A stretch of 64,000 nt of DNA from Halorubrum xinjiangense (GTDB lineage: Archaea; Halobacteriota; Halobacteria; Halobacteriales; Haloferacaceae): NCBI RefSeq assembly GCF_900102375.1, contig NZ_FNBO01000006.1, forward strand, positions 124,001 through 188,000, given 5' to 3'. The notes beneath the pieces are model-generated. The model saw nothing but the letters and a program-made list of their open reading frames with translations, was not told the origin of the DNA and did not search any database. The first letter of the stretch is position 1. Each line of letters begins with the position of its first letter. This document shows, in pieces, positions 10,330 through 51,433 of the stretch. The translations under genes were made by a program, and so were the position numbers.

Positions 10330-10420
10330 CGGCCGCGGGGCCGACCCAACTGGATCAACAGCAGCGATACGGTTCTTTTAAAGGCGTAGGCGACGGCGGC
10401 AATCGCTTATAAATATATAG

Positions 10421-10690
10421 GCGGTGGCGCGTGCCTGCGAGCGCCCGACAGGGCGCGAGTCGCACGCGCGAGGGACGCGGTGAGTGAGGGGCGACCGCAG
10501 AGAGCCCCGAGCGAACCGCGAGGCTGGGGAGGCGTGAGGTGCTGTGCGGTCGCGGTCGGGCGGGACTCAAAGGGGCAGTCGCGAGGACGAAGCACGGCGC
10601 AGTAAGCACCGCAGCGAAGGAGCGAAGCGACTGAGCGAGGAGCACAGCAAGCCGCGCGAGTCGTCGCGGCTGGGGCTTTGGAGGTGTTCG
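10421..10690 (+). ncRNA. Repeated structured RNA candidate, copy A
   Basis: Copy A of a four-copy intergenic element. Shared blocks in order are GCGGTGGCGCGTGCC, GCGCGAGGGACGC, GAGGCTGGGGAGGCGTGAG, GGTGCTGTGCGG, GGGACTCAAAGGGGCAG, AGTAAGCACCGCAG and CTGGGGCTTTGGAGGTGTT. Between them are helices: P1 (GCGCGTGC with GCACGCGC), P2 (CGCCC with GGGCG), P3 (CGCGGT with ACCGCG, plus an inner GGGGC with GCCCC), and P4 (CAGTCGCGA at 10576-10584 with TCGCGGCTG at 10664-10672, one U-G wobble). A TATA-like CTTATAAATATATAG lies at 10406-10420. The rest of the 10330-10889 gap holds repeat units and two further TTATAAA boxes near 10767 and 10800, before the HAD phosphatase gene. This copy alone is flanked by genes on its own strand. 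Confidence 0.6.
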
Positions 10691-10780
10691 TTCCCGATTC
10701 TCCACCAACCATTTATAAGCGAGCGGCTGGGGCTTTGGAGTTCATCACCGCCAACTCGCGAACTACTTATAAAGGCCGAC
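10667..10780 (+). repeat. 57-base tandem units following element copy A
   Basis: Two units start with CGGCTGGGGCTTTGG at 10667 and 10724, exactly 57 bases apart. The first overlaps the 3' end of the element and ends in ATTTATAAGCGAG. The second is decayed but still ends in a TTATAAA box. In this copy CGCTTATAAAT at 10404-10414 and ATTTATAAGCG at 10711-10721 form a perfect 11-base inverted repeat around the element. Confidence 0.7.
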
Positions 10781-10889
10781 AGCAACACCTCGGCTCGGCT
10801 TATAAATAACCTCCCAGTCGCTCTGACTCCGCTACGTAACAGAACCGATCGAACGGAAGACAGTTGTCGCCGAGTCGCCGACTCGGGGT

Positions 10890-19217: not shown

Positions 19218-19440
19218 GCGGTGGCGCGTGCCTGCGAGGCCGCTTTGCGGCCGAGCAGCACCGCGCGAGGGACGCCGCGAGCGACCGGAGGAAGCGAGCG
19301 GCGAGGCTGGGGAGGCGTGAGGCTGCGGTGCTGTGCGGTGCGGGTGGGACTCAAAGGGGCAGCCGTGAGGACGAAGCACGCCGCAGTAAGCACCGCAGGG
19401 AGCGCATCGAGTCCTCACGGCTGGGGCTTTGGAGGTGTTC
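19218..19440 (+). ncRNA. Repeated structured RNA candidate, copy B (shortest)
   Basis: Shortest copy of the four. The P4 stem is perfect: CAGCCGTGAGGAC at 19360-19372 pairs with GTCCTCACGGCTG at 19411-19423, and only 38 bases lie between the arms. P1 pairs GCGCGTGCCTGC with GCAGCACCGCGC, enclosing a P2 hairpin GGCCGCTTTGCGGCC. P3 pairs GCCGC with GCGGC. CTGCGGTGC at about 19323-19331 is perfectly complementary to GCACCGCAG in the P4 loop, a possible pseudoknot. A CTTATAAAC box lies at 19198-19206. The upstream gene gshA is divergent and the downstream gene DoxX is convergent, so the copy is an isolated unit. One 57-base unit follows and ends in a palindromic CATTTATAAATG near 19461. Nothing else is visible up to 19609. 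Confidence 0.6.
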
Positions 19441-19609
19441 TCCACCGATCGACAGTCATTCATTTATAAATGAGCGGTAGCAACGCGGCCCCTCTCCGTT
19501 ACAAAATCGAGTACGAAAATCGAACCGACCGAACTGTACTCCGCGTCTCGAAAACGAGTCGGCGGTGAGCCGTCACCGCCCGATTCCCCTCGCCCGGTCT
19601 CGCCCCCGT

Positions 19610-38593: not shown

Positions 38594-38651
38594 CCGCGGC
38601 TAGTAGCGCCGGGACGCGGTTAAGAGCGTCGAAGCGCCGGCGGGAAGCAGC

Positions 38652-38756
38652 GGGTTCGCCGGCGGAAGGCAGGTGGAACGTCGGAAGGAATCGGAGGGTT
38701 CGCCGGCGGGAGGCGGGCGGAACGTCGGGAGAAATTGGGGGTTCGCCGGCGGCGGG
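38652..38756. repeat. 44-base direct repeat upstream of idi
   Basis: GGGTTCGCCGGCGG starts at 38652, 38696 and 38739, so units of 44 and 43 bases repeat about 2.4 times, with GGAACGTCGG in each. Only one short unrelated A/T patch (AATCCTTATTAG near 38781-38792) lies between them and idi, and this would be its promoter. Confidence 0.75.
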
Positions 38757-41530: not shown

Positions 41531-41614
41531 GGTGGGATGGCAGAGTGGCCCATTGCGCCTGCCTTGAAAGCAGGTAGCCTCACGGCTTCCTGGGTTCGAA
41601 TCCCAGTCCCACCG
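41531..41614 (+). tRNA. tRNA-Ser (anticodon UGA)
   Basis: 84-base class II tRNA. The acceptor stem GGTGGGA pairs with TCCCACC in seven Watson-Crick pairs, and the discriminator base is G as in archaeal tRNA-Ser. The anticodon stem is CCTGC/GCAGG with loop CTTGAAA, anticodon TGA. A long variable arm (GCCTCACGGC) and a T-stem CTGGG/CCCAG with loop TTCGAAT follow. No intron is seen, and CCA is not encoded. The 208 bases before it (41323-41530) hold nothing else that I can recognise. Confidence 0.97.
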
Positions 41615-41692
41615 TGTCGAGCGCGGCGCACTCTCGCGCCGCGCGAGAACCGTGCGGGATTCGAATCAGAGAGCGACCGCAGGGAGCGACCG

Positions 41693-41714
41693 TGGTTCGA
41701 AATCCCAGTCCCAC
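41693..41714 (+). other. Duplicated 3' end of tRNA-Ser, attachment-site scar
   Basis: GGTTCGAAATCCCAGTCCCAC at 41694-41714 repeats the T-arm and 3' acceptor strand of the tRNA at 41593-41612, with a single inserted A. Another T-loop-like GGATTCGAATCAGA lies at about 41656-41669. The interval of about 100 bases is too short for an element, so this would be the remnant of an integration or repeated use of the tRNA as attachment site. The remainder of the 41615-41962 gap holds the sod promoter (ATTATCTTTAAC near 41912). Confidence 0.7.
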
Positions 41715-41962
41715 AGTAGCGCGTCCGGCACATTTTCGCCTCGGACGCGGCCCGTCTAGGAGTAACTTAAATCGGTTACACCTTCGTCCCGTCCGTCGGT
41801 CAGGACTGGCTTCCGGGCTCGCGCTCCTGTCTCCCGGAACCGCTACCACACCGCTGATCGCCTGAAGCGACCGGTAACACTCACGTCCGGTGACGCGTGG
41901 TACCGCGTGCCGCATTATCTTTAACAGGTTTCCGGCACATGTTCGTGATAGGTGATACAGAC

Positions 41963-42562: not shown

Positions 42563-42649
42563 GCGCGTTCGAGAGGACGCGTTACGCGCGTCGAGATCCG
42601 CATTTTTCGCAGTACGTCGCCCGAGGAGTGACGGATTCGTTGAGACCGG

Positions 42650-42820
42650 CTGGTTTGTCAGTAATCGGCGGTCGATCAGCGGATAACATCTCCGAATACC
42701 CAGTCGCTCGCTTATAAATAGCTAACCGCGGATCGGCGGAGAACACTTCCAAATCCCCAGCCGCCCGGTTATAAATGGCTGACTACGGATCGGCGGCAAA
42801 CACCCCCAAAGCCCCAGTCG
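42650..42820 (-). repeat. Three 57-base units following element copy C
   Basis: Units start (minus strand) at 42820, 42763 and 42706, exactly 57 bases apart. Unit 1 begins CGACTGGGGCTTTGG, unit 2 CGGCTGGGGATTTGG and unit 3 CGACTGGGTATTCGG, so divergence grows with distance from the element. Units 1 and 2 end in ATTTATAA. Unit 3 has lost this box. Fixed length with drifting sequence argues against a simple slippage origin alone. Confidence 0.8.
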
Positions 42821-43155
42821 GCTCCGGTCGAGGGCCTCGTTGTCGCCCGAAAATCTCTGATTTTCGGGATGACGAGAGAGCTTTGCTCTCTCGAACCACG
42901 CTCCTCGCTCACTCCGTTCGCTGCGGTGTCGCCGGCGGCTCTGCCGCCGGCTACCCGTGGCGCGTAGCGCCACGCTGCTTACTTCGGCCGTCTTCCCGGA
43001 GCCGACTGCCCCTTTGAGCCCCACCCCGCCCCGCACAGCACCGCAGCCTCACGCCTCCCCAGCCTCGTCGCGGCCGCTTTTAAGCGGCCGCGACTCCCTC
43101 GCGCGTGCTGCCTCACGGCCGCCGAGGGCGGCCGCTCGCAGGCACGCGCCACCGC
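42798..43155 (-). ncRNA. Repeated structured RNA candidate, copy C (longest)
   Basis: Read on the minus strand, this copy has the same block order as A and B. P4 has a different sequence but pairs perfectly: CAGTCGGCTCCGG (43008-42996) with CCGGAGCCGACTG (42827-42815). P2 is CGGCCGCC with GGCGGCCG plus one G-U, and P3 is a long GTCGCGGCCGCTTAAAAGCGGCCGCGAC hairpin (in two arms). Between AGTAAGCA and CACCGCAG, where copy B has nothing extra, are hairpins such as GCGTGGCGC-TA-GCGCCACG and GCCGGCGGC-AGA-GCCGCCGGC. Two more hairpins (GAGAGAGC-AAA-GCTCTCTC and GCCCGAAAATC-AGA-GATTTTCGGGC) lie just before the closing arm. The upstream gene (43230) is divergent and sod is convergent. The 42563-43229 gap holds only this and its 57-base units. 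Confidence 0.6.
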
Positions 43156-51027: not shown

Positions 51028-51044
51028 ATCGAGCGAATTGCGTT

Positions 51045-51154
51045 CGGTGTTGTTTATAAAAACGGTTCGGTGGTGAACATTGCCGAAGCCCCAGCCGCTT
51101 GCTTATAAATAGCCGACAACGGATCGACGACGAACACCGCCAAAGCCCCAGCCG
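51045..51154 (-). repeat. 57-base units following element copy D
   Basis: Units start (minus strand) at 51154 and 51097, again 57 bases apart. The first is CGGCTGGGGCTTTGG ending in ATTTATAAGC, and the second CGGCTGGGGCTTCGG ending in TTTTTATAAAC just short of the stop region of the membrane protein gene. Confidence 0.75.
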
Positions 51155-51433
51155 TGAGGACGGCGCACACTCGTTGCGCTCCTCGTCACTCGCTGCGCTC
51201 GTTCCTGCGGTGTCGCTGGCGGCTTTGCCGCCGGCTTTCCGTGGCGCGTAGCGCCACGCTACTTACGTCGTCTGCGCCGTCCTCACGGCTGCCCCTTTGA
51301 GTCCCGCCCGGCACCGCACAGCACCTCACGCCTCCCCAGCCTCGCGGTTCGCGCTCTCCGAGCGCTCACCGCGTCCCTCGCGCGTGCTCCTCGCGGCCGC
51401 CGAGGGCGGCCGCTCGAAGGCACGCGCCACCGC
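51131..51433 (-). ncRNA. Repeated structured RNA candidate, copy D
   Basis: On the minus strand P4 is 19 perfect pairs: CAGCCGTGAGGACGGCGCA (complement of 51291-51273) with TGCGCCGTCCTCACGGCTG (complement of 51167-51149). P1 pairs GCGCGTGCCTTC with GAGGAGCACGCGC, where copies B and C have CTGC with GCAG, so a G-C pair became U-A and a U-A became U-G. P2 is GCGGCCGCC with GGCGGCCGC and P3 is CGCGGT with ACCGCG. Internal hairpins GCGTGGCGC/GCGCCACG and GGCGGC/GCCGCC match those of copy C. A CATAAATT box lies just upstream at about 51440-51448. The upstream PHP gene is divergent and the membrane protein gene is convergent. The gap 51028-51517 holds only this, its repeat units and the PHP promoter. 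Confidence 0.6.

Follow-up and report, generated by a model that had tools for sequence, protein, structure and literature searches.

A tandem array in Halorubrum as the probable 3' tail of a dispersed, structured repeat element of the Halobacteria

The tandem units described here are probably the 3' tail of a dispersed, non-coding and structured element of the Halobacteria, a tail that has grown by local tandem duplication on an element that we infer to be mobile. This reading draws on the structure of the element, its dispersal and variable copy number, the locus-specific homogeneity of its arrays, the change in unit number between orthologous loci and the existence of remnants composed of units only. 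The accumulation of partial 3' copies is in itself a common process, local tandem duplication, acting on an undescribed element. The novelty resides in the family itself and in the spacing of its tail units by multiples of three nucleotides, and the latter rule is the most interesting part of these results.

Results

Four copies of the element in the window

The host is a Halorubrum with a genome of 3.26 Mb, close to H. sodomense and H. coriense. The window (the whole stretch of DNA analyzed, 64,000 nt in length) contains four elements, A to D, each of which is one copy of a dispersed, structured element present in about 125 copies in the genome. A preliminary description of this DNA had reported a sequence repeated at exact 57-base steps beside three of these elements, and the positions proved correct. 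The repeated motif, here termed U (GGCTGGGGCTTTGG), starts at about 10667 and 10724 in A (+ strand), at 42820, 42763 and 42706 in C (- strand) and at 51154 and 51097 in D (- strand), with CGGCTGGGGCTTTGG and close variants as the sequence at the U positions of these elements, and it recurs genome-wide. Element B presents one unit only, with U at 19419 (+ strand). Allowing two mismatches, the window holds eight matches to U against 0.23 expected, which excludes chance, and at one mismatch the genome holds 288 matches against nine for a reversed control pattern. The stem motif CTCAAAGGGGCAG occurs 125 times in the genome, a figure that approximates the number of elements. The features of the four copies are the following.

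10407..10414, + strand: TATA-like TTATAAAT, about 17 nt 5' of core A
10423..10681, + strand: element A, structured core
10668..10724, + strand: element A, tail unit 1
10725..10781, + strand: element A, tail unit 2
19220..19475, + strand: element B, core and single tail unit
42649..42705, - strand: element C, tail unit 3, strongly drifted, U motif with 4 mismatches
42706..42762, - strand: element C, tail unit 2
42763..42819, - strand: element C, tail unit 1, comprising U motif (3' strand of main stem), spacer and TTTATAA
42806..43153, - strand: element C, structured core, GGTGGCGCGTGCCT through U motif, two double-hairpin modules inserted
51040..51096, - strand: element D, tail unit 2
51097..51153, - strand: element D, tail unit 1
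51140..51431, - strand: element D, structured core, one double-hairpin module inserted

Two other local repeats were observed in the window. The 3' end of a tRNA gene at 41531-41614 (AATCCCAGTCCCAC...) recurs 102 bases downstream (41599-41653 and 41701-41755), and the arrangement at 41531-41755 looks as if it had been left by a small integrated element. At 38635-38752 lies a 44-base tandem repeat, apparently non-coding, a local array that falls outside the multiple-of-3 rule reported below.

Fold and covariation of the core

The element was characterized on a sample of 66 copies from contigs 1-5 and the window, while counts extending beyond the element stretches, one contig and the comparison regions derive from pattern searches. 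All but a few of the 66 copies follow a common plan, consisting of GGTGGCGCGTGCCT, a variable hairpin, CGAGGCTGGGGAGGCGTGAGG, GACTCAAAGGGGCAG, a long arm, U and the tail units. The core comprises about 240-370 nt (175-372 nt among the 66 copies, where measured), which is too short for a transposase gene. Ahead of the core, the 5' flanks of the copies agree only in GC and in a TATA-like box; the box is enriched 13-26 nt upstream of the core, where most copies carry it, and it could drive transcription of the element itself, although its distance from the first helix is short.

On one strand, the core is predicted to fold (z = -6.4) into two hairpins, P1 and P2, a third hairpin that is short and conserved, and a long arm, P3; the arm of the present hairpin measures about 115 nt. 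The U motif constitutes the 3' strand of the P3 main stem, with CTCAAAGGGGCAG as its partner strand, and is therefore no free repeat. In an alignment of 39 copies, standard pairs fill 98.9% of helix cells, both sides have changed in 25 of 55 pairs and covariation amounts to 0.282, as compared with 0.109 for shuffled and at most 0.052 for slid partners. Across 14 other genera, in an alignment that was fitted to the model and thus leans towards structure, 31 of 37 pairs show double changes and covariation is 0.618 versus 0.167. G-U cells outnumber A-C cells in Halorubrum (12:3 in P1, 16:1 in the stem and 22:3 in the inner arm), and hence the strand shown is the folded strand. A DNA palindrome of pure symmetry was rejected, since in most helices wobble pairs greatly outnumber A-C mismatches. 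The long stem across genera, on the other hand, has four G-U and five A-C among 552 cells, i.e. almost no wobble, so that its perfection there may have a DNA-level origin.

Within this fold, perfect hairpin pairs with 3-nt loops were observed in C (42845-42985), in D (51210-51265, - strand) and in L010, L052, L069 and other copies, at fixed insertion places in the loops of the element and in either orientation, like nested small mobile repeats; the SMR-A elements (PMC3119063) offer a comparison. In the P2 hairpin and P1 loop region of the G000 elements, P2 is represented by a limited number of discrete alleles, which are exchanged from locus to locus. Orthologous copies at site C carry differing P2 alleles, an indication of gene conversion between copies or of the swapping of modules among them.

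Number, drift and local copying of the tail units

Behind the core stand between one and five U units, for which 57 nt is the usual spacing. In the 57-nt register, loci with 1, 2, 3, 4 and 5 units number 16, 28, 14, 5 and 3, respectively, and the units detectable by position fall from 66 of 66 to 50, 22, 8, 3 and 0 of 66. These units do belong to the element, as partial 3' copies beside its core, and the drift with distance from the core that had been noticed in the window was confirmed, unit 1 having a mean identity of 0.81 with the unit consensus and units 2-4 one of about 0.72-0.75. The notion of a fixed 57-base spacing needs qualification: 57 is the usual distance, but others occur, constrained by a 3-nt step.

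Units of the same locus are more alike (0.65) than units of different loci (0.58), a difference reached in none of 2000 permutations. In L015, L048, L056 and L057 there is little or no difference among the core-side units, whose spacer is unique to the locus, while the last unit has diverged. The same pattern is found in the 63-nt array of G037, with core-side units that are alike and locus-specific and a diverged last unit, and in the L025 array, where the near-identical units are again array-specific and the last one diverged. Unit 3 of L025 is a hybrid, its left part coming from unit 4 and its right part from units 1-2, as unequal exchange at U would be expected to produce.

It seems reasonable to postulate that two U copies in a row would misalign in recombination or slippage, and that everything between them would then be duplicated. 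Misalignment at U would generate identical core-side units and leave the last spacer old and drifted, the polarity of the units arising because exchange between U copies duplicates only the stretch between them and so leaves out the last spacer, which is located beyond the last U. The core-side U, for its part, would be kept conserved as part of the fold or be refreshed by gene conversion between copies. The preliminary description had instead considered a repeated end-directed insertion, by which a mobilizing machinery would add partial 3' copies one by one, as spacers are added in a CRISPR array, and the polarity of the units, fresh near the core and drifted outward, agrees with it. Yet unequal exchange alone gives polarity, added units copy the first unit of their own locus and not other copies of the element, and L025 displays a crossover hybrid, all of which renders end-directed insertion highly unlikely; the locus-specific, near-identical copies and the hybrid point to local duplication. 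Moreover, a CRISPR array combines identical repeats with unique spacers, whereas here the spacers are repeated along with the motif.

The TTTATAA box

TTTATAA had been assigned to every unit. It is located at U+44 to U+50 in most of them, but not in all, and whole arrays lack it. In a genus-wide sample, into which the 57-nt loci of G017 and some others were entered only in part, TATAA appears in 42% of 57-nt units, 8% of 54-nt units, 12% of 51-nt units and none of two 48-nt units. In the same sample the TAYNNNCGAGC junction before U is more general than TATAA, and TTTATAA would be one version of this junction and not a required promoter.

A role of the units as tandem promoters, with each TTTATAA feeding the next gene or a leaderless transcript from a GTG about 30 nt downstream, was nevertheless considered, as it had been proposed from the window. 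TTTATAA is well conserved in the units of this genome and is placed as an archaeal TATA box would be for a start near GAGGTG, and promoter-bearing intergenic repeats are known from Halorubrum virus HF2 (PMC8707807). Against this, among the 60 elements with both neighbors called (gene calls being mechanical), the tail faces the 3' end of a gene in 40 and a gene start in only 20, and no more than 5 of the 60 are flanked by divergent genes. Furthermore, in other species 51-, 54- and 57-nt units have TATAA in only about 8-42% of cases and 48-nt units have none, but their arrays are equally long, the TATA-less arrays of 48-, 51- and 54-nt units having expanded just as well. The repeated units of L048, which are 51 nt long, are without TATA and the array is expanded, and TATA is thus not needed for expansion. 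Tandem promoters are consequently a very improbable explanation of the array. As for the spacing-dependent binding array that had also been suggested, a constraint on spacing does exist in the form of the 3-nt step, but a helically phased array finds no support, because spacings of 48, 51, 54, 57, 60, 63 and 66 nt span all helical phases.

Spacing by multiples of three nucleotides

Of the 105 U-to-U intervals in all sequences compared, 104 have lengths divisible by 3, in the range from 48 to 72 nt. A genus-wide gapped-pattern search recovered 48, 51, 54, 57, 60, 63 and 66 nt and one exception, 56, among 81 loci. When independent combinations of spacer family and non-57 length are counted, 14 of 15 fit a multiple of 3 (p about 2e-6), and clear cases of 51, 54, 57 and 66 nt with unrelated spacers were found in other genera. 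Distances inside the core are not quantized by 3.

One candidate explanation for such a step is the conservation of a reading frame, in a tail that is or was translated into a repeated peptide such as AGALEVF(n)YxRA. Besides the multiples of 3, most units of 48 to 57 nt are open in the frame GCT GGG GCT TTG GAG and Tyr appears as either TAT or TAC. However, variation in the tail shows no codon periodicity (entropy 1.17/1.17/1.20), a stop interrupts the candidate frame in 35% of the arrays with at least three units, a share equal to that of the neighboring frame, the candidate frame is closed in 6 of 7 63-nt units, and its position relative to the core varies. On these grounds ordinary coding of the tail was rejected, and we deem a translated tail, present or past, extremely unlikely. 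Triplet spacing without signs of coding is left unexplained by ordinary unequal exchange, and we know of no repeat family that shows triplet-quantized tail units. A more far-reaching hypothesis, which we offer as a doubtful one, is that the elements belong to an undescribed, class-wide group of RNA-structured mobile repeats, SINE-like in that a folded transcript is mobile, the tail units of which would come to lie at 3-nt-quantized distances through a triplet-step process, such as a recombinase filament or a translating ribosome.

Distribution of the element

Among 52 Halorubrum species, the genomes contain between 0 and about 156 copies of the motif. Some of the low counts correspond to species variants of the motif, as in G016, where many copies are still recovered with the RNA model. 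Exact U or stem motifs are scarce in G016, G021, G022 and G179, of which G016 at least has many model matches, and CTGGGGCTTCGG appears in place of the usual motif among these four; all copies of one genome thus seem to change their motif in concert. The RNA model, for which copy counts per genome are to be read as at least the number given, has matches in 108 of 145 sampled genomes of the class, corresponding to 45 of 58 genera, and none outside the Halobacteria in a phylum sample of 148 genomes. In other haloarchaeal genera (G041, G047, G057, G162, G105, G110, G142 and G108), the arm GACTGAAAGGGGC...GGGGCTTTC is often found in REPIN-like pairs, in which two inverted copies stand head to head at a distance of about 100-350 nt.

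In the window only a tRNA reached the gathering threshold of an Rfam family, the element having no match there, and the best weak match over element A was a chance lncRNA match (E 1.2). Likewise, no described haloarchaeal repeat of this kind was found in the literature searched. Element A matched none of 50,697 phage records, and a viral origin of the element was rejected on that basis.

Orthologous loci

Relatives were compared on one genome per species, with intergenic flanks that are unalignable at about 90% gene identity. The number of units at the same locus varies between species, being 5/4, 2/4 and 3/1 in G000 versus G037 and 1-3 at site C among the relatives with the element, and hence a constant count, the outcome that would speak against an accumulation of units, is not what was found. 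Sites carrying only units, which the preliminary description had suggested looking for, were found as well: site D in G037 has lost the core, with the junction inside CTCGCGG, and in this genome L008 retains its tail next to a truncated core. At site D some relatives carry the element and others have an empty site, and at the positions of two G037 elements this genome has an empty site, a plain and short intergenic stretch. At site C, the element is recognizable in 16 of 20 relatives, degraded in G025 and absent in G004, G176 and G008 (outgroup-like species), and it has the same orientation in most of them. No transposition event, target duplication or exact ends could be demonstrated among these one-genome-per-species comparisons, and no mobilizing enzyme for the element was found in this genome; the element would probably spread as a transposase-free repeat served in trans.

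The conservation of site C, with its element kept in the same orientation in most relatives, could also be accounted for if the elements were immobile, i.e. ancestral multi-copy genes for regulatory or structural RNAs under selection, with tails that are drifting 3' flanks. Strong covariation and wobble asymmetry, which imply selection on the structure of the strand, are in line with this possibility. We consider it rather improbable, since copy number differs so widely among congeners, several sites are empty in relatives and the nested hairpin modules act like repeats inside a repeat. The preferred reading thus remains that of a dispersed element, putatively mobile, with a locally duplicated tail.

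Discussion

With about 125 copies in this genome and relatives in 45 of 58 sampled genera, the family is new to Rfam and to the literature searched. If strand-specific covariation reflects RNA, archaea hold a large family of folded repeats. The triplet rule imposes on any model of tail origin the need to explain non-coding copies that lie 48, 51, 54, 57, 60, 63 or 66 nt apart and hardly ever at intermediate distances, and the loci constitute ready-made polymorphic strain markers for Halorubrum.

The BOX elements of Streptococcus pneumoniae are intergenic repeats built from modules, one of which, central in position, is present in tandem in varying number. The present element resembles them in organization, being likewise modular and intergenic with a tandem module of varying number, but here the repeated module forms a 3' tail overlapping one strand of the main stem. 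The class I repeats of HF2 are similar in length (58 bp), in their TATA boxes and in belonging to Halorubrum systems, yet they are viral and dispersed, not tandem (PMC8707807), and no sequence relation to these promoter repeats was found, there being no phage match. With REP and REPIN sequences the element shares an extragenic location, hairpin formation and hundreds of copies (PMC3116915), as well as the head-to-head inverted pairs of the hairpin seen in other haloarchaeal genera. The arm is, however, about 115 nt long and not 20-40 bp (PMC3116915), and none of the six Y1 transposase loci of this genome is flanked by the element, in place of the RAYT/Y1 association that defines REP and REPIN.

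The closest parallel is provided by the PATEs, palindrome-associated transposable elements of Haloquadratum walsbyi that are devoid of transposase and are defined by the lack of terminal inverted repeats, by near-terminal palindromes related to IS605-type transposons and by the lack of target duplication (PMC3119063). Compared by description, both are dispersed, transposase-free haloarchaeal repeats of high copy number with strong palindromes, and both host smaller nested hairpin repeats (PMC3119063). Core deletions have been described in Haloquadratum (PMC3119063), and derivatives of this kind, which retain end sequence only, are represented here by site D of G037 and by L008. The element differs in that its core is a multi-helix fold with covariation followed by a homogeneous tandem tail, and in that its palindromes are not common to the genome's 22 TnpA/TnpB loci. 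Beside the 16 TnpB and 6 TnpA genes neither U nor the c and b motifs were found, save for one ordinary element copy near L120, and an IS200/IS605 origin in this genome was rejected, as the motifs are not shared with those loci. Because the relation to IS605 was tested and does not hold in this genome, filing the element among the PATEs is not justified; they are nonetheless the nearest known kind, and the behavior of the two is much alike.
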